This document shows positions 1,721 to 34,041 of a DNA stretch of 35,560 bases, in pieces. This stretch comes from Marinitoga hydrogenitolerans DSM 16785 (GTDB taxonomy: Bacteria; Thermotogota; Thermotogae; Petrotogales; Petrotogaceae). Made by a program: the position numbers and the translations under genes. The DNA is taken from NCBI RefSeq assembly GCF_900129175.1, contig NZ_FQUI01000023.1, forward strand, positions 1-35,560, in the 5' to 3' direction. The notes beneath the pieces are model-generated. The model made no database searches, was not told the DNA's origin, and saw only the letters and a program-made list of their open reading frames with translations. The stretch's first letter is position 1. The number at the start of each line of letters is the position of its first letter.

Positions 1721-2713
1721 TTATTTTTTTAACTTTTTAGGTGTTCTATGATTCAATACTACCACTATTCCACCTATTATCAAAACATAATAGTAAGTTA
1801 TAAATCTCCATAAAACTAAAATCGCGCTCATCTTTTCAGGGGTTAACATATCAGAAAACACTAAATAAAATATACCTTCAGCACCACCTGATGTCCCTGG
1901 TGTTGGTATAATTGATGAAGTTACTTGTGTTATTAATGATTTAAAAATCAAGTTTAATGTGCTATTATAACTAAAACCTTTTAAAACAATTGGTAAAATA
2001 AGAAATGAACAAGAAAATTGCAAAACACTCAAAAGAAATATAATAATTATTTTTCCTAACTTTTTTGATTCTAATTTAAATACATCTATAAACACCTTTA
2101 CTTTTGAAATTATTTCATCTGTATATTTTTCTGGATTTTTTAATACGCCAATTTTTTTTAGAGCTTTTACAAAAAATAGTGTAGTATTGATGGCAGCTTT
2201 TTGATTAATTACATAAAATATTATCAAAAAAACCGCTAATGAATTCAATAATATACCTAAAATAATACCTGTTGTAATTGTAGATGAAAAATGATAAAAA
2301 GAATATATTGCTGCTATAGTACCTAAAAATGCCATATTTATCTGGAAAATAAACGTTTTAAAAAGAATGGTTGCTGTAGCTTTTCCAGGATCGATACCAT
2401 ATTTTGAAATATATAATATTTGAAATGGCTGACCTCCAGTATAAAATGGAGTTAAATAACTATAAAATTGGCCTATTAGTGTGAAATTTAATGACTGTTT
2501 TAAAGAAATGTTTTTTAATAATAACTTTATTACCAAACTTTCAATAAACCATTTGGTTGTAATTAATAAAAATCCGTAGAATAAAAATATATAATTGTAC
2601 CCAAAAAAAGATTGGATACTGTTTGTAAATCCTATTGTTACTGAAATTAATATAAAAACTACTGCTGTTGCTATTAATGCAAACAAAAAACCATATAAAT
2701 ATTTTTTTTTCAT
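1721..2713 (-). CDS. Flippase-like integral membrane protein (UPF0104 / LPG-synthase TM-domain family)
   Basis: A 330-residue, highly hydrophobic protein with about eight membrane spans, starting with a span at residues 5-30. It carries the family landmarks GGQPFQ (about residue 95) and PTPGTSGGAEG (about residue 275). The family covers the membrane part of lysylphosphatidylglycerol synthase and proteins thought to move lipids or lipid-linked sugars; the substrate cannot be read from sequence. It is the last gene of the surE-def-fmt operon, its ATG lying one base after the upstream stop. A paralogue with the same two motifs is at 22228-23235, inside a glycosyltransferase cluster. Confidence 0.82.
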   Translation of the reverse strand: MKKKYLYGFLFALIATAVVFILISVTIGFTNSIQSFFGYNYIFLFYGFLLITTKWFIESLVIKLLLKNISLKQSLNFTLIGQFYSYLTPFYTGGQPFQILYISKYGIDPGKATATILFKTFIFQINMAFLGTIAAIYSFYHFSSTITTGIILGILLNSLAVFLIIFYVINQKAAINTTLFFVKALKKIGVLKNPEKYTDEIISKVKVFIDVFKLESKKLGKIIIIFLLSVLQFSCSFLILPIVLKGFSYNSTLNLIFKSLITQVTSSIIPTPGTSGGAEGIFYLVFSDMLTPEKMSAILVLWRFITYYYVLIIGGIVVVLNHRTPKKLKK

Positions 2714-18196: not shown

Positions 18197-18595
18197 ATGT
18201 TAAAAGAGTTTTCTATTTCAACTTCCCATAGAAATGAATTCGTTGATATCACTCATCTTATACAAAATTTTATAAGTGAAAGTAAAATACAAAATGGAAT
18301 TGCTGTAATATTTGTCCCACATACTACAGCTGGAGTTACTATAAATGAAAATGCAGATCCATCAGTAAAGAAAGATATGAATGAATTTTTGAATAAACTA
18401 ATACCTAAAGAACCTTTTTTTACTCATTTCGAAGGAAACTCCGACTCTCATATAAAATCTACATTGGTTGGACCATCTCTAACTTTGATAATCAATAATA
18501 ACAATATTTTATTGGGAACTTGGCAAGGTGTTTATTTTTGTGAATTTGATGGTCCTAGAAAAAGAAAGTTTTTTGTTAAATTAATACGTGAATAA
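18197..18595 (+). CDS. YjbQ/UPF0047-family protein (first copy)
   Basis: A 132-residue single-domain protein of the YjbQ family, for which a weak thiamin-phosphate synthase side activity has been reported; the true role is not settled. Conserved blocks: VPHTTAGVTINENADPSV (about 48-65) with the invariant His and Glu, the second His region FEGNSDSHIKS, and LGTWQGVYFCEFDGPRKRK at the end. It follows minE after nine bases with its own GAGGTGG and is the last gene before a strong terminator, so it is co-transcribed with minDE. A second, more divergent copy is at 33583-34041. Confidence 0.9.
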   Translation: MLKEFSISTSHRNEFVDITHLIQNFISESKIQNGIAVIFVPHTTAGVTINENADPSVKKDMNEFLNKLIPKEPFFTHFEGNSDSHIKSTLVGPSLTLIINNNNILLGTWQGVYFCEFDGPRKRKFFVKLIRE

Positions 18596-18620
18596 ACGGG
18601 AACCCCTTCCCGTTTTTTTT
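18596..18620 (+). terminator. Terminator of the minD-minE-yjbQ operon
   Basis: ACGGGAA (18596-18602) pairs with TTCCCGT (18607-18613) around CCCC, followed by seven T. It starts immediately after the yjbQ stop. Confidence 0.93.
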
Positions 18621-18623
18621 ATA

Positions 18624-18652
18624 TTGATTTTATCAATTTAATAGAGTATAAT
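18624..18652 (+). promoter_or_regulatory. Promoter of the CNBD-glycosyltransferase operon
   Basis: TTGATT (18624-18629), 17-base spacer, TATAAT (18647-18652), placed directly after the preceding terminator. GGGAGGGGG then precedes the ATG at 18672. Confidence 0.82.
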
Positions 18653-18671: not shown

Positions 18672-19934
18672 ATGGAAAAATTAATTTTTTTTGAAGAAGA
18701 AACTATTCAAGAAGAAAATGGTGAACCTATAGGACTTATTATACTAAAAAAAGGTGCTTTACTATGCCAGTCACATTTTTGCAATTATAGGAAAATATAT
18801 ATCAATAAAGGTATTTTTTCAGAAGAATTTCTTTTCCAAATGAAAGTTAATGAATTTTTATCGAATATTAGAAATAGTGAGATATTATTACTTGACAATT
18901 TAAAAGAAGCTAATGAATTTTTAGCAAATAATAGCGAATTATTAAAATTTGCTATTGAAAAAAGAATAAATATGTTAATTAAAATGAATGAAAAAATTTC
19001 TTTGAAATTTACAAAATTAGATGAAGTTTTTTCATATACAAAAGAAGAAACCAAAAAATTTTTTAAACATATTTATAGGTATAATTGGAACCATTTTAAC
19101 GATAAATTTATTCAAAATTATATTTTGGCAAGAGAGAAAATTTTGGAAGATGAATATGAGGACGCATTTGAAGTATTAAATAAAATAAATTTAAATGAAA
19201 TAAAGGATAATTTTTTTAAAGCCGAAATAGATATATGGAAAATATATTGTACTAATTTTTTTAACACAAAAAAAGCCCATAATTTATTTGATAAAATACA
19301 TTTCAAGTATGATTTTCTTGACTCTTTATTTTCTTTTAAAATATTGAGAAAAACTTTATTTGACGAAAACTTAGATACTATTTATAAAACTTATTTAAAA
19401 AAAGGGTATCTAATCCCCTCGAATACTGTTTTATTCTATGAAAAAGAAGATGGCGATTGGTCATTTTTAATATTAAGTGGAAATGTTTATGTTTCAAAAT
19501 TTGTAGATGAAAAAACAGAAATTTTATTAAATATTTTAACTGAAGGCGAAATTGTTGGTGAAATTGCTGTTTTACAAAGCATTAAAAGAACTGCTACTGT
19601 TTTTACTAAAACTCCATTACAAATGATTTTAATCAATTCAGAAAATTTCGAAAGTTTAATAGAAGAAAGTTATTTATTAGGTAAAAACATATTAAAAGCA
19701 CTTATCAATAGAGTTGATTTTCAAAAAAGTTTAGCAAAACAAAATACTTTAACAGAAAAAGCATCTTTATTAATAAAAAAGTATTCCATAAAAAGATTAA
19801 ATAGTTTGCATTTAACCCCTTCACAATTTATAAATTTATTTGGAATTCAAGAAAAGATTGATGATTTTTTTTCTGAAATATTATTAAATAAAATTGCCAC
19901 TTTAAGACCTGATGGAACACTTTATTTTAAATAA
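18672..19934 (+). CDS. Cyclic-nucleotide-binding-domain protein A (tandem paralogue)
   Basis: A 420-residue soluble protein. The C-terminal part (about 245-350) is a clear CNBD: PSNTVLFYEKEDGDWSFLIL, then the phosphate-binding cassette GEIAVLQSIKRTATV (296-310) with the Glu297 and Arg306 that bind the cyclic phosphate in this superfamily. The N-terminal 100 residues look like a degraded CNBD without the cassette. The middle (about 130-245) is helical and TPR-like (ILAREKILEDEYEDAFEVLN). The end (about 355-420) resembles a small helical or winged domain closing with ATLRPDGTLYF. No enzymatic output domain is seen. It heads a long operon of glycosyltransferases and is followed after 18 bases by its paralogue. 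The ligand (cAMP, another cyclic nucleotide, or none) is unknown. Confidence 0.83.
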   Translation: MEKLIFFEEETIQEENGEPIGLIILKKGALLCQSHFCNYRKIYINKGIFSEEFLFQMKVNEFLSNIRNSEILLLDNLKEANEFLANNSELLKFAIEKRINMLIKMNEKISLKFTKLDEVFSYTKEETKKFFKHIYRYNWNHFNDKFIQNYILAREKILEDEYEDAFEVLNKINLNEIKDNFFKAEIDIWKIYCTNFFNTKKAHNLFDKIHFKYDFLDSLFSFKILRKTLFDENLDTIYKTYLKKGYLIPSNTVLFYEKEDGDWSFLILSGNVYVSKFVDEKTEILLNILTEGEIVGEIAVLQSIKRTATVFTKTPLQMILINSENFESLIEESYLLGKNILKALINRVDFQKSLAKQNTLTEKASLLIKKYSIKRLNSLHLTPSQFINLFGIQEKIDDFFSEILLNKIATLRPDGTLYFK

Positions 19935-19952
19935 ATATATGGAAGTGATTAT

Positions 19953-21230
19953 ATGAAAGAAATTTTATATGCTCCTGATAAAATACTCATAAATGAAGGA
20001 GATTTAATAAATGATTTAATATTGTTGAAAGAAGGAAAATTAGAAACTTTTTCAAATTTTTGTAGTCATTCTTCAATAGAAACTAAAGGTATATTTGGTT
20101 CTGAAATGATCGTTTCTGAAACAAAATCTTTCGAATCAATTCGAGTTATTGAAAATAGTAGGGTTATACATATAGAAAAAGAATTGGTAGAGAAATTTTT
20201 ACTTTCAAATTCTCATTTAATTATACATTTAATTCAAAAATATATAATCAAATTAATATCTTTAAATAATAAAATATTTGGAGACACCCTCAGAAAAAGC
20301 GGCAAGAATGAAAATACAATTGACAAGAACCTTACAAAAGAAGATTTATCAAAAAAATATTTAAAAAAAGTGAGAAGAAAAAATTTTTATCATATTAATG
20401 ATGAACAATTAATCACATATAGGATTGCACGAAGTTTGTTTAATCACGGAAAAATAAAAGAAGCCTTAAATGAATTTAAAAAAATCCAATATACTAATTT
20501 TGGTGTGTATTTTCAAGCTGAAATTGAAACCTGGAAATACTTATGTATGATTTTAATTTATCCAGAAAAAAAATATTATTTAGAAAAAACTTTAAAAGAA
20601 AAATATCCTTTTATTAAAGAACTTTTTTCTTTTATGATTTTTGAAAGTATTATAACAAATATGCCATTATCCAAACCACTTATAACTTACTTAAAAAGTG
20701 GGTATTTAATTCCCGCTAATACAGTTCTTTTTTATGAAGGTGAAGAAGGAGATTGGGCTTTTATGATTTTGACTGGAAATGTTAGAGTTTCACAATTTAC
20801 CCCTTCAGGAGAGCGATTATTAGCTATTTTATCAAACGAAGAAGTTGTCGGGGAAATATCTTGTTTCAAAGAAGTTCAAAGAACTGCTACTGTTTTTACT
20901 TCTACTCCTTTACAAGGCATAATAATAGAAAAAAATAATTTAGATGAATTAGTAAATAGTAATCCTGCTTTTGGATTAAAAATTGTAAAAAACTTAATTA
21001 AAAGATTAGACTTTGAACGTTTTTGGCATTCACCGTTATCTTTTGAAGAAAAGTTAAACTTTATGATAAATAAATATGGTAAAAATATATTGAATAAATC
21101 CCAATTAAAAATTGAAGAAATCAGGGAACTTTTTAGAATTTCTAACAAAAAAAATAACGAACTAATAAATTATTTATTTAAATCTAATATTGCAACCTTA
21201 AGAGCTGATGGTACTTTAAAATTCATGTAG
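19953..21230 (+). CDS. Cyclic-nucleotide-binding-domain protein B (tandem paralogue)
   Basis: A 425-residue protein with the same architecture as its upstream neighbour: a degraded N-terminal CNBD (INEGDLINDLILLKEGKLET, about 13-32, and GSEMIVSETKS, about 49-59, with no cassette Arg); a helical, TPR-like middle (YRIARSLFNHGKIKEALNEF); a complete C-terminal CNBD (PANTVLFYEGEEGDWAFMIL, then GEISCFKEVQRTATV, 300-314, with Glu301 and Arg310); and a terminal helical segment ending ATLRADGTLKF. It arose by tandem duplication, but the copies have diverged considerably. The GT4 gene starts nine bases after its stop. Possible roles are a transcriptional regulator or an allosteric partner of the glycosyltransferases; neither is shown. 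Confidence 0.83.
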   Translation: MKEILYAPDKILINEGDLINDLILLKEGKLETFSNFCSHSSIETKGIFGSEMIVSETKSFESIRVIENSRVIHIEKELVEKFLLSNSHLIIHLIQKYIIKLISLNNKIFGDTLRKSGKNENTIDKNLTKEDLSKKYLKKVRRKNFYHINDEQLITYRIARSLFNHGKIKEALNEFKKIQYTNFGVYFQAEIETWKYLCMILIYPEKKYYLEKTLKEKYPFIKELFSFMIFESIITNMPLSKPLITYLKSGYLIPANTVLFYEGEEGDWAFMILTGNVRVSQFTPSGERLLAILSNEEVVGEISCFKEVQRTATVFTSTPLQGIIIEKNNLDELVNSNPAFGLKIVKNLIKRLDFERFWHSPLSFEEKLNFMINKYGKNILNKSQLKIEEIRELFRISNKKNNELINYLFKSNIATLRADGTLKFM

Positions 21231-21239
21231 GAGGTAATA

Positions 21240-22244
21240 ATGAAAGTATTACTATTTTCAGAAGGAAAAAATTTATTTAAAAAATCTGGTGTTGGAAAAG
21301 CTTTAGAACATCAAATGAAAGCTTTAGAGTTAGCTGGTGTTGAATATACACTAGATCCAAATGATAAATATGACATAGTTCATATAAATACAATAGGGTT
21401 ATTAAGTGAAAAAGTTTTAGATAAAGCAAAAAAAAATGGAAAAAAAGTTATAGTTCACACACATACAACATATGAAGATTTTAAAAATAGTTTTATATTT
21501 AGCAATTATTTTGCCCCTATAATAAAAAAAAGATTAATCAGAATGTATTCTAAAGCAGATATGCTTATTTCACCTTCTTTATATACAAAAAAATTGATTT
21601 TATCATATGGTATAAAAAATAAAATTGAAGTTGTTTCAAACGGTGTAGACACAAACAAATTTAATTGTCAAAAAAAGTCGAAAAAAATTTTTAAAAAATA
21701 TTTTAATATAGAAAAACCTTTGGTATTATCGGTGGGTTTACCTTTTGAAAGAAAGGGTATTATCGATTTTTATAAATTAGCAGAAAAGTTACCTTTTTAT
21801 GATTTTGTTTGGTTAGGAGCAAAATTAAATGTTATTCCTAAAAAGATAAAAAAGTTATTAAATAATAAATTACCAAACCTAAAATTCCCAGGTTTTGTTT
21901 CCGAAGATTTATTGCTTGCTGCTTTTTGTGAATCTGATGTTTTTTTGTTTCCAAGTTATGAAGAAAATGAGGGAATTGTAGTTCTAGAAGCATTATCTTC
22001 TAAAACTCCTCTGATATTAAGAGATATTCCTGTATATGATAATTGGTTGTCTCATGGAGAACATTGCTTAAAATCTAGAAATTTAGATGATTTTATGAAA
22101 AATATCAAATTAGTTATTAATAATGAAATCGATATAAAAAAAATGGTTGATAATGGAAGACGTATTGCAGAAGAACGTGATTTAAAAAAGATTGGTGTTA
22201 TGCTAAAATATATATATGGTGAGATTTATGAAAGAAAAGGTTAA
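21240..22244 (+). CDS. GT4-family glycosyltransferase (first)
   Basis: Transfers a sugar from a nucleotide-sugar donor with retention. The 334 residues form a GT-B fold: the N-terminal acceptor half has the glycine loop KSGVGKALEHQMKALE, and the C-terminal half has VVSNGVDTNKF and the E-x7-E donor motif in SYEENEGIVVLEAL (about 240-253). It is a little shorter than the 370-400 residues usual for the family. AGGAGG precedes the ATG by five bases, and the next gene overlaps its end. Operon context with a flippase-like protein and a second GT4 suggests a glycolipid or lipid-linked saccharide as product. Donor and acceptor cannot be inferred. Confidence 0.9.
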   Translation: MKVLLFSEGKNLFKKSGVGKALEHQMKALELAGVEYTLDPNDKYDIVHINTIGLLSEKVLDKAKKNGKKVIVHTHTTYEDFKNSFIFSNYFAPIIKKRLIRMYSKADMLISPSLYTKKLILSYGIKNKIEVVSNGVDTNKFNCQKKSKKIFKKYFNIEKPLVLSVGLPFERKGIIDFYKLAEKLPFYDFVWLGAKLNVIPKKIKKLLNNKLPNLKFPGFVSEDLLLAAFCESDVFLFPSYEENEGIVVLEALSSKTPLILRDIPVYDNWLSHGEHCLKSRNLDDFMKNIKLVINNEIDIKKMVDNGRRIAEERDLKKIGVMLKYIYGEIYERKG

Positions 22245-23235
22245 AAATATTATTGGTATAATATCTTCAATTATTATAGGACTATTTGTTATTCTATTTA
22301 TTCAAAGATTTTATAATACTGATATATTAAGTGAAATAAAAAAAATAAAAATCTACGATATCATTATAGTTTTTTTTATATATTTTACAGGATATATAAT
22401 TGATTCTTTAAGATATTTTATTATAATAAAACAATTTAATAGAAAAATTGGTTTTCTAAATCTATTATATAACAACGTTATGGGATTATTTTTTTCCTCA
22501 ATAACTCCGTTTGCCGCAGGTGGCCAACCATACCAAATTTATCATTTGAATAAACATGGCTTAGACATAGAACATTCAACGAATATTGTTGTCTCGCGCT
22601 TTATTACTACTATGTTTTTAAATTTAACAATTGCTATTCTCTCATATAAAAAAGTTATCAAAGCTTTATACGGTACAACATTTGAATCTGCATTAATTAA
22701 TTTAGGTTTAATTATTTCTGCAACTATAACTATTTTAATTTTAATTGTTTTTTCAAATTCAGAAATTATAATAAAGCTTTTAGATCTATTAAAACTAAAA
22801 AAAATTAAAAAATTAAAAAATAAATATATTGAATGGTCAAAAAATTTAAAAGATAGTATTAAATTTTTATGGAATGAAAATTTACATATAATGATTTTAG
22901 ATATCATTTTAAATTTAATAGTACTATCTCTACAGGCTTATTCTCTTTTTTATTTATTCACAAAATATGCTTATTTAAATATATCAATAGATAATTTTTT
23001 AATAGTTTTTGGAACTATGATGTTATTAAATATGGTTGTTTATTATATTCCTACTCCAGGGGCAAGTGGAACAATTGAAGCTTCTTATCAACTAGTTTTT
23101 TCTTCAATATTAAAAATTCATAAAGGTGTCCTTTTATCTATTGTAGGCTGGAGATTTTCAACTTATTATTTACAAATTTTATTAGGGATTATTTTCCGAA
23201 CTTATGTGAAGCTTTTTATTAAAGAAAGCAAATAA
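22228..23235 (+). CDS. Flippase-like integral membrane protein (UPF0104 / LPG-synthase TM-domain family)
   Basis: A 335-residue membrane protein with about eight spans, paralogous to the protein at 1721-2713. Shared landmarks are AAGGQPYQIYHLNKHG (about residue 90) and PTPGASGTIEASYQ (about 270). The ATG at 22228 has GGTGAG four bases before it; an in-frame ATG at 22216 would add four residues. It overlaps the end of the upstream GT4 gene by 17 bases, so the two are coupled. Lying between two GT4 genes, it may move the glycolipid product across the membrane; that is inference from family and context only. Confidence 0.82.
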   Translation: MKEKVKNIIGIISSIIIGLFVILFIQRFYNTDILSEIKKIKIYDIIIVFFIYFTGYIIDSLRYFIIIKQFNRKIGFLNLLYNNVMGLFFSSITPFAAGGQPYQIYHLNKHGLDIEHSTNIVVSRFITTMFLNLTIAILSYKKVIKALYGTTFESALINLGLIISATITILILIVFSNSEIIIKLLDLLKLKKIKKLKNKYIEWSKNLKDSIKFLWNENLHIMILDIILNLIVLSLQAYSLFYLFTKYAYLNISIDNFLIVFGTMMLLNMVVYYIPTPGASGTIEASYQLVFSSILKIHKGVLLSIVGWRFSTYYLQILLGIIFRTYVKLFIKESK

Positions 23236-23277
23236 ATATTTTTACAAATTCACAAAATAACGTAAAGAGGTGGAATA

Positions 23278-24429
23278 GTGAATATTGGAATTTTTTCTGA
23301 TGTGTATTTTCCGCAAAAAAATGGAGTTTCTACTGCTGTAAAATTATATAAAGATGAAATGGAAAAATTAGGGCATAATGTTTACTTGTTTATCCCTAAA
23401 TATTCTAAGAATTATAAAAGAAATGAAAAAAATGTATTTGAATTTCCAGCTATAAAATTTTTATTCGAAAAAGAGCAAAGAATTGCTTTACCATTATCAA
23501 CAGATATATTTAAAATAAAAGATTTAAATTTAGATATTATTCATTCCCAAGACCCTTTTTCAATGGGTATCTTTGCAGAATTTATGTCTAAATTATTAAA
23601 AATAAAACACGTTGGAACTCATCATACAATGTATGAATATTATAGAAATTATTTACCATTGATTATAAGGCCTACCCTTAAACAAACTCAAAGAATGATA
23701 CGAAATTGGTGTTTAAAGTTAGATAAAGTTATTTCTCCTACAAATAATATTAAAGATTTATTAGTTAGTTATGGTGTTCCAGATGATCATGTTATAGTTA
23801 TTCCAACTGGGATCGACACAGAAAAATTTAATAAAGAAATAATCTGGAATTTGAGAGATGAATATAATATATTACCTGAAGAAAAAGTATTGCTATTTGT
23901 TGGAAGATTAGGACAAGAAAAAAATATAGATTTTTTAATTAAAGTTTTTCATAAGGTCTTTCATGAGGAAAGAAACATAAGATTTGTTATCATTGGAGAC
24001 GGAATTGAAAAAAATAAATTAGAAGAGTTGGTTGTAGATTTAGATCTTCATGAAAGAGTTATTTTTACAGGTAGTCAACCTAGAGAAAATGTTATAGATG
24101 CTTATAAACAGGCTGACCTTTTCATCTTTGCATCTTATACAGAAACACAAGGTCTCGTTGTCTTAGAATCTATGGCTGCTGGAACACCTGTTGTGGCTTT
24201 AGGAAAAATGGGGGTATACGATTTATTAAATCATGAAAATGCAGGAGGTATAATGGTTAAAGATTTAAACGAAGATATTTTTGTTCATGAAATATTAAAG
24301 GTTTTAAAAGATGAAAATTTATATAACACTTTATCAAAAAATGCTATAAACTTTGTAAAAGAAAATTATTCTATAGAAGTATCAGTGAGAAAAATCATCG
24401 ACGTATATAAAAATGTTTTAGAATATTGA
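23278..24429 (+). CDS. GT4-family glycosyltransferase (second; diacylglycerol glycosyltransferase-like)
   Basis: A 383-residue GT-B enzyme with full-length family features. The N-terminus IGIFSDVYFPQKNGVSTAV is characteristic of GT4 enzymes that glycosylate diacylglycerol or related lipids. GTHHTMYEYYR and VIPTGIDTEKFN follow, then the C-terminal LLFVGRLGQEKNIDFLI and the E-x7-E motif in SYTETQGLVVLESMAAGTP (about 289-307). It starts with GTG behind GAGGTGG. The -35 box of the tRNA-Val promoter overlaps its stop codon. Glycolipid synthesis is the likely role; the exact lipid acceptor is not established. Confidence 0.91.
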   Translation: MNIGIFSDVYFPQKNGVSTAVKLYKDEMEKLGHNVYLFIPKYSKNYKRNEKNVFEFPAIKFLFEKEQRIALPLSTDIFKIKDLNLDIIHSQDPFSMGIFAEFMSKLLKIKHVGTHHTMYEYYRNYLPLIIRPTLKQTQRMIRNWCLKLDKVISPTNNIKDLLVSYGVPDDHVIVIPTGIDTEKFNKEIIWNLRDEYNILPEEKVLLFVGRLGQEKNIDFLIKVFHKVFHEERNIRFVIIGDGIEKNKLEELVVDLDLHERVIFTGSQPRENVIDAYKQADLFIFASYTETQGLVVLESMAAGTPVVALGKMGVYDLLNHENAGGIMVKDLNEDIFVHEILKVLKDENLYNTLSKNAINFVKENYSIEVSVRKIIDVYKNVLEY

Positions 24430-24454
24430 CAAAAAAAAAATTTTATGGTAGAAT
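24426..24454 (+). promoter_or_regulatory. Promoter of tRNA-Val, overlapping the GT4 stop codon
   Basis: TTGACA (24426-24431), 17-base spacer, TAGAAT (24449-24454). The TGA stop of the second GT4 gene is part of the -35 box. Confidence 0.82.
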
Positions 24455-24466
24455 TCTTGAGGTAGT

Positions 24467-24541
24467 GGGTGCTTAGCTCAGTGGGAGAGCGCTTCCTTGA
24501 CGCGGAAGAGGTCGCAGGTTCGATCCCTGCAGCACCCACCA
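24467..24541 (+). tRNA. tRNA-Val (GAC)
   Basis: 75-nt cloverleaf with acceptor GGGTGCT/AGCACCC, anticodon arm CTTCC-TTGACGC-GGAAG, T-arm GCAGG-TTCGATC-CCTGC and encoded CCA (24539-24541). It sits inside a run of glycosyltransferase genes, 37 bases after one and 22 bases before the next. A run of seven T directly follows CCA and its one-base spacer. Confidence 0.96.
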
Positions 24542-24563
24542 TTTTTTTGTAAGGAGAGAAAAT

Positions 24564-25694
24564 ATGGATATTTTATTCTTTTCTATTGTGTTTTCTATGC
24601 TTTTTCAACTATTAGGTAAATATTCTAATCTTTATAAAACTTTTCTCAGCAAAAAAAATTTAAAGTATCATTCGGATTTAAAAATTTCCATTATTATCCC
24701 TACATATAATGAAGAAAAAGTTATAGAAAAGAGCATTGAATGTATTCAAAAAAATACATATAAAAATTTTGAAATCATAGTTATTGATGACAACTCTTCT
24801 GATAGCACTTTTAAAATACTGAATGATTTAGAAAAAAAATACGATAATATAAAAATTTTATTAAAAAAGGGATATAAAGGAAAATCCCAATCTATCAATG
24901 AAGCTTTTAAATATGTAACGGGTGATGTTGTCCTCTTCTTGGATGCCGATACGTTAATAGATGAATACTTTTTAGAAGAACATATAAAATACTTTTATAA
25001 TGATAAAATAAATATGACATATGTTGATTTTGAACCATATAATTATAAAGAAAAAATTATCTTTGATTATCAAGAAGTATATTTTGAATTTAGTCGAAAT
25101 ATATTATATTCAAATTTATTTTCAAAGGCTGTATTTATGGGAAATGGTGTTTTTATTAGAAAAAATATATTAGAAAAAGTTTTACCTTTAGATAATTTAA
25201 CATTAGTTGATGATGTTCATTTAGCATTAAAACTCAATCATATAAAAATTAATCAAATTTTTGTTATATCACCTAAGGTCAAAATACAATATGTGAACAG
25301 CTTTAGAGACTTATATCTCCAACATAAAAGATGGTATATTGGCGGAATTGAAGAATTATTTAAAGCCTTAAAATATAAAAATATTAATATTTTTATTATA
25401 AATTTAATTATTATATCTATACTAACTCTACCTATCAGCTTTGCTTTTATTTCTTTAATACTACCTAAAATAGGATTTTTTTTATTAAAAACTTTTTTTG
25501 GCATTGTTTGGGGGTTAAATCTCGGTTCAGCTTTAATATTAATCAAAAAAAATAAATTATATAGAACCTTAATAAATATATTTGTAACTACACCTTTTAT
25601 GCTCTTTTTTGAATATATAGTTTTAATAAATTCTTTTTTTAATCTTTTTAAAAAAGAAAAAAAATGGTATAAAGTCGAAAGAGAAACAATATAA
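24564..25694 (+). CDS. Membrane GT2-family glycosyltransferase (processive-type motifs)
   Basis: A 376-residue inverting glycosyltransferase. A hydrophobic N-terminal segment (about 1-18) is followed by the GT-A catalytic domain: ISIIIPTYNEEKVIEKS, DDNSSDST, FLDADT (the DxD metal site), a TLVDDVH acidic motif, and LQHKRWYIGG, which is the (Q/R)xxRW motif of processive enzymes such as those making poly-N-acetylglucosamine or hyaluronan. Two to three membrane spans follow (about 275-360). AAGGAGAG precedes the ATG. No gene-specific promoter was found, so transcription probably comes from the tRNA-Val promoter or the upstream operon. Polymer or glycolipid extension is likely; the sugar is unknown. 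Confidence 0.88.
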   Translation: MDILFFSIVFSMLFQLLGKYSNLYKTFLSKKNLKYHSDLKISIIIPTYNEEKVIEKSIECIQKNTYKNFEIIVIDDNSSDSTFKILNDLEKKYDNIKILLKKGYKGKSQSINEAFKYVTGDVVLFLDADTLIDEYFLEEHIKYFYNDKINMTYVDFEPYNYKEKIIFDYQEVYFEFSRNILYSNLFSKAVFMGNGVFIRKNILEKVLPLDNLTLVDDVHLALKLNHIKINQIFVISPKVKIQYVNSFRDLYLQHKRWYIGGIEELFKALKYKNINIFIINLIIISILTLPISFAFISLILPKIGFFLLKTFFGIVWGLNLGSALILIKKNKLYRTLINIFVTTPFMLFFEYIVLINSFFNLFKKEKKWYKVERETI

Positions 25695-25716
25695 AAACGG
25701 CCATATTGGCCGTTTT
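25694..25716. terminator. Bidirectional terminator between GT2 and the minus-strand operon
   Basis: AAAACGGCCA (25694-25703) pairs perfectly with TGGCCGTTTT (25707-25716) around TAT. It terminates the plus-strand glycosyltransferase unit and overlaps the last codons of the converging minus-strand gene. Confidence 0.88.
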
Positions 25717-33582: not shown

Positions 33583-34041
33583 ATGAGTTTTGATGAAGAA
33601 ATATATGGAAATGAAGTGAAAAGCGTAACAAAATATTTATGGTTTAATACAAAAAAAAAGATTGAAATAATTCACTTAACAAATGAAGTTAGAGATTTTG
33701 TTAAGGAATCAAATATTATTGACGGGTATGTCATGGTATCCGCAATGCATTTAACGGCATCAATATATATTAATGATTGCGAAAGCGGTCTAATAGAGGA
33801 TATTAAAGAATGGTTAGAAAAATTGGCTCCTCAAAATTATCCATACAAACATCATAGAACCGGCGAAATAAACGGACATGCTCATTTAAAAAATTTAATA
33901 ATGCATCATCAAATAATTGTTCCTATAACCGATGGAGATCTTGATTTAGGACCATGGCAGGAAATTTTTTATGCCGAATTTGACGGTCAAAGACGAAAAA
34001 GAGTTATTTTGAAAGCATTTGGTATAACTGGTAAAAGGTGA
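33583..34041 (+). CDS. YjbQ/UPF0047-family protein (second copy)
   Basis: 152 residues, with an N-terminal extension of about 15 compared with the copy at 18197-18595. Conserved blocks: [16 protein letters not shown], with the His and Asn, where the first copy has [30 protein letters not shown]; and [19 protein letters not shown]. The two copies are clearly from different subfamilies rather than a recent duplication. A run of seven G serves as Shine-Dalgarno. It is followed by the GH1-like gene after five bases. The biochemical role is not settled for the family. Confidence 0.88.

Follow-up and report, generated by a model that had tools for sequence, protein, structure and literature searches.

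Organization of the locus

The window analysed here is a stretch of 35,560 nucleotides from Marinitoga hydrogenitolerans DSM 16785, in which two adjacent genes, CNBD-A and CNBD-B (A and B), head a run of glycosyltransferase (GT) and flippase-like genes (Table 1). The original prediction had placed both open reading frames at the coordinates listed there, and domain and family matches confirmed the GT4, flippase-like, GT4 and GT2 genes downstream. Its proposal that all of them form one unit between terminators held in part. Hairpins are found at both ends of the block (in other Marinitoga they also occur at the position equivalent to 18594-18615), and the promoter before A is conserved, with hexamers and 17-base spacer identical in 5/5 Marinitoga retaining A or its remnant. 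The unit is interrupted before GT2 by a tRNA-Val gene whose own promoter is present in 7/7 Marinitoga (TTGACA-17-TAGAAT or TAAAAT, with TG in front). Because this gene and its promoter lie between the second GT4 and GT2, GT2 is probably a separate transcript outside the CNBD-headed unit, and the separate enzyme promoters that would argue against a common operon were found for GT2 only. In one Marinitoga (G042) GT2 is missing from this position and an AAA protein stands instead. The window also holds two UPF0047-like genes, at 18197-18595 and at 33583-34041, the latter labelled solely by its resemblance to the former.

Table 1. Features of the CNBD-headed locus in window coordinates.
Feature	Position	Strand	Remarks
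Terminator-like hairpin	18594..18615	+	Closes upstream UPF0047 gene
Promoter ahead of CNBD-A	18624..18652	+	TTGATT-17-TATAAT
CNBD-A	18672..19934	+	Degenerate CNBD, helical middle, intact CNBD, winged-HTH-like end; dispensable paralogue
CNBD-B	19953..21230	+	Architecture as in CNBD-A; 7/7 Marinitoga
GT4, IagA/BgsA type (glycolipid glycosyltransferase)	21240..22244	+	NF053513
Flippase-like membrane protein	22216..23235	+	LPG_synthase_TM / TIGR00374
Second GT4, nearest alpha-monoglucosyldiacylglycerol synthase	23278..24429	+	NF049988
tRNA-Val promoter	24426..24454	+	TTGACA-17-TAGAAT with TG; 11/12 consensus
tRNA-Val (GAC)	24467..24541	+	Between second GT4 and GT2; 7/7 Marinitoga
Membrane GT2	24564..25694	+	Probably co-expressed with tRNA, not with CNBD cassette
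Bidirectional terminator-like hairpin	25694..25716	.	End of block

The first GT4 scored 446 bits over its full length against the IagA/BgsA model, narrowly below the curated cut-off of 460, and the best of 45 families for the second GT4 was alpha-monoglucosyldiacylglycerol synthase (197 bits, short of the cut-off of 400). Because of this first score and this nearest family, the operon likely makes a glycolipid of the glucosyl-diacylglycerol type, and the BgsA-like and MGlcDAG-synthase-like GT4s support the envelope glycolipid foreseen as product class. The cassette of G039 (L099:3635-6706) has gained a UDP-galactopyranose mutase, a GlfT1-like GT and an extra flippase-like gene; the mutase and GlfT1-like insertion fits an envelope glycolipid role. 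Elsewhere in the window (1721-2713) lies a second flippase-like gene, which is a better match than the operon's own flippase to those of GT4-flippase cassettes in families f2 and f8.

Conservation of A and B within Marinitoga

A and B are paralogues (38% identical), and a fully supported grouping in the tree marks them as a duplication within Marinitoga. B occurs in all seven Marinitoga genomes. Three of them carry an intact A; in G040 the gene is frameshifted, in G043 it is gutted, and two genomes lack it. The G040 frameshift is likely a sequencing error, because neighbouring genes are broken too; in G043 an in-frame internal deletion has removed all but the two protein ends (L103:7804-8106). 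We conclude that B is the core protein and A a genus-level duplicate that has several times been lost or gutted. An obligate A-B heterodimer, an extension of the suggestion that the pair may work as a heterodimer, was rejected as unlikely on these grounds, with A absent or gutted in 3/7 Marinitoga.

The order B-GT4-flippase-GT4 is kept in 6/7 Marinitoga, the first GT4 being deleted in G041, and G039 and G044 carry genes inserted ahead of the second GT4. Marinitoga synteny reaches well past the operon and linkage of B to the GTs is hardly above this background, and linkage alone is therefore weak evidence of function. In a single contig scan, the sole outside match to B came from the close relative Marinitoga lauensis, at 80% identity.

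Domain architecture

With 420-425 aa and two CNBDs each, A and B differ from the CRP/FNR norm of about 220 aa and a single CNBD. Pfam places a CNBD in the C-terminal half of both, at residues 249-332 of A (52 bits) and 254-337 of B (82 bits summed over two stretches). When 29 family members are aligned, eight columns are invariant, including those that hold the Glu and Arg of the phosphate-binding cassette in the C-terminal CNBD (E301 and R310 in B numbering, 29/29); none of the aligned members retains a cassette in its N-terminal CNBD. AlphaFold models, built on a small alignment of three sequences (A and B of the window and one related locus), give a helical, TPR-like middle and are of low confidence except near the C-terminus (mean pLDDT 49 and 45); Foldseek with these low-confidence models returned no match at E 0.001. 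The degraded state of the N-terminal CNBD, the helical middle and the intact cassette of the C-terminal half had all been anticipated and are borne out, the cassettes across the alignment and the middle by the low-confidence models. Read by eye, no PF00027 protein found in the genome other than A and B combines an intact cassette with an HTH-like end.

The original prediction had seen no obvious output domain; a candidate was found in the C-terminal half, which is co-linear with CRP/FNR proteins through the winged helix-turn-helix. The match of the family profile to CRP structures takes in the CNBD, the C-helix and the helix-turn-helix. In a profile-profile comparison with the CRP/FNR-type proteins of the same genome (two proteins only), the aligned region likewise ran from the CNBD almost to the C-terminus, with a probability of 89%. 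For the C-terminal 65 residues of B, AlphaFold modelled three helices followed by two strands (H-H-H-E-E, pLDDT about 70-84, from the three-sequence alignment). A stand-alone profile of the HTH domain, searched against PDB and Pfam, gave no significant CRP match, its top PDB matches being designed helical repeats. The recognition helix (IQEKIDDFFSEIL in A, SNKKNNELINYLF in B) lacks the usual DNA-contact residues in A and most members; one member from family f10 retains SRQET. Sequence and models together suggest that an output domain probably exists and is most likely a CRP-derived winged helix with putative DNA binding, and since the recognition helix is degenerate and the stand-alone match non-significant, DNA binding by A and B may have been lost.

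Family distribution and association with a class III cyclase

Searches with the family profile, centred on this phylum, covered 103 Thermotogota genomes and found full-length double-CNBD members in 27, from four taxonomic families; the family is apparently phylum-wide in Thermotogota and undescribed. Outside Marinitoga its neighbours are kbl/tdh with a beta-aspartyl-peptidase gene, genes for TrkA-N and RNase III domain proteins, lepA with gatA, or a GT4 gene. The GT4 gene directly adjoins the double-CNBD gene at L121 and L122 (G102 and G101), and the GT4 of L121 is nearest to mannosylglucosylglycerate synthase (427 bits, cut-off 640). No CNBD was found near the BgsA-like GT4-flippase cassettes of families f2 and f8 in 14 stretches of 16 kb. 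The expected general link between the CNBD pair and glycosyltransferases is not supported: outside Marinitoga the gene stands mostly apart from GTs, an outcome that the original prediction had itself named as counting against it, and a link to glycolipid synthesis is seen in Marinitoga only.

A gene pair by kbl-tdh in this genome (L187:2649-3981, G000:C19) was considered as a split relative and rejected, as only its first gene matched the family profile, via the CNBD. The two genes overlap, and the CNBD of the first has no cassette; in family f9 a double-CNBD gene likewise adjoins kbl-tdh.

A class III cyclase (PF00211) is encoded in 35/103 genomes, occurring in 26/27 genomes with a full-length member versus 9/76 without (Fisher p about 1e-15, uncorrected for relatedness). 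At genus level, all 10 receptor-bearing genera have the cyclase compared to 13/38 overall (p about 6e-7, likewise uncorrected), and the pattern recurs within families f1, f9 and f10, in which cyclase-less genera are also without the receptor. The exceptions are G086 (92% complete, 260 contigs), with a family member and no cyclase, and the nine cyclase-bearing genomes with no full-length member.

The genome studied here encodes a single class III cyclase, a CHASE2-cyclase located away from the A/B locus (G000:C6, L176:329-2323), in which the metal Asp, substrate Lys and transition-state Arg motifs are all present. Downstream of it lie genes with HD-GYP-like products, as judged by eye. Metal Asp and substrate Lys motifs are found in 31/31 cyclase loci read, and the [DN]YT...N..R motif in 29/31, the motif script having missed L155 and L158. 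Most loci carry KF[IV]GD and DYT, and two carry KYEGD and NYT; we take the Lys/Thr pair to fit class IIIb adenylate cyclase. A CYTH cyclase was sought in the taxonomic family and none was found. The invariant C-terminal cassette and the phylum-wide co-occurrence with a class III cyclase lend support to the nucleotide-binding switch proposed at the outset. As far as sequence can indicate, the ligand of A and B is most likely cAMP from the genome's CHASE2-cyclase, and their identity as cAMP receptors is fairly well supported.

A candidate cAMP receptor heading a glycolipid operon

The explanation we favour, at a probability of roughly 45%, is that both A and B act as receptors for cAMP, probably as regulators of the CRP kind, and that they head and perhaps control the glycolipid operon. 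It builds on the observed architecture, invariant cassette, cyclase co-occurrence, gene order and conserved promoters, from which we infer binding of cAMP and of DNA and control of the operon. The family would be built from a dead CNBD, a helical, TPR-like middle, a live CNBD and a CRP-like winged helix. cAMP made by the CHASE2-cyclase would bind the C-terminal CNBD of A or B, and ligand binding there would reposition the winged helix, as in CRP, together with the helical middle, altering binding to DNA or to a partner. In Marinitoga, the receptor genes would have become the first genes of an operon of BgsA-like GT4, flippase-like and MGlcDAG-synthase-like GT4 genes, such that at least B would be co-produced with these enzymes and may determine how they are expressed. 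We regard as doubtful the wider proposition that double-CNBD winged-helix proteins serve throughout the phylum as the cAMP receptor instead of canonical CRP, partnered by a single class III adenylate cyclase, and that in Marinitoga they link cAMP to the glycolipid make-up of the membrane.

It is quite possible that A and B are a general cyclic-nucleotide effector that owes its position at the operon head to ancestry and regulates no glycolipid synthesis, as homologues elsewhere adjoin unrelated genes, the 16 kb stretches read around the f2 and f8 GT4-flippase cassettes contain no CNBD, and synteny in Marinitoga is high in general. However, the unit holds together in all Marinitoga, with tight spacing and no gap sized for a clear internal promoter, and it does so even in G042, where a rearrangement breakpoint lies just upstream of A.

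The receptors might instead act through protein contact rather than on DNA and switch the pathway post-translationally, with the nucleotide altering how the middle helices and the degenerate winged helix dock on the GTs or another target. In favour are a recognition helix that departs from the CRP pattern in A and most members, a stand-alone domain that is not recognised as a CRP HTH, and a TPR-like middle suggestive of protein binding. We consider this unlikely; outside Marinitoga the architecture adjoins unrelated enzymes (kbl/tdh, lepA/gatA, TrkA-N/RNase III), so that no common partner is evident. Least probable is that the CNBDs bind no ligand at all or sense a nucleotide other than cAMP, for example cGMP or a cyclic dinucleotide. 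The residue following the cassette Arg does vary across the family (T, M, Q, L, A, S), but cyclase and receptor co-occur and the cyclase motifs fit a class IIIb adenylate cyclase.

Relation to known systems

The favoured reading, of A and B as CRP-like cAMP receptors, draws on their resemblance to CRP/FNR factors such as M. tuberculosis CRP (3h3u), with which they share the CNBD-C-helix-HTH alignment and the intact G-E...R cassette, but they stand apart in the extra CNBD and helical domain at their N-terminal side, in the degeneracy of the recognition helix and in DNA binding that is putative. PKA and PKG regulatory regions likewise have two CNBDs per chain, with a canonical cassette in the C-terminal one; in A and B, however, the N-terminal CNBD is without a cassette, so the two tandem CNBDs are not both functional, a helical domain lies between them, and no kinase or inhibitor segment was seen. 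Bd1971 (CNBD-EAL) and family 2B encapsulins are also bacterial non-CRP CNBD proteins and both turn up in similarity searches, whereas A and B carry neither an EAL nor an encapsulin domain, nor any other output domain with a name. As in the two-enzyme glycolipid systems of Firmicutes, BgsA/BgsB (PMC3083329) and Listeria LafA/LafB (PMC2764115), two GTs of glucosyl-diacylglycerol type are encoded close together, but the Marinitoga GTs are split by a flippase-like gene and preceded by receptor genes, and their NCBIfam scores fall under the curated cut-offs.

A literature search, by title and abstract, found no account of cAMP signalling in Thermotogota at that level. A receptor family that tracks the class III cyclase throughout the phylum would provide a candidate receptor for such signalling and render it testable, and if the operon link is true, cAMP would be tied to envelope lipid composition in hot-vent bacteria. 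A separate gene of this genome (L185:3514-4020, G000:C39), which encodes a single CNBD with an intact cassette and lies beside a potassium-channel-like gene, is another candidate cAMP effector.
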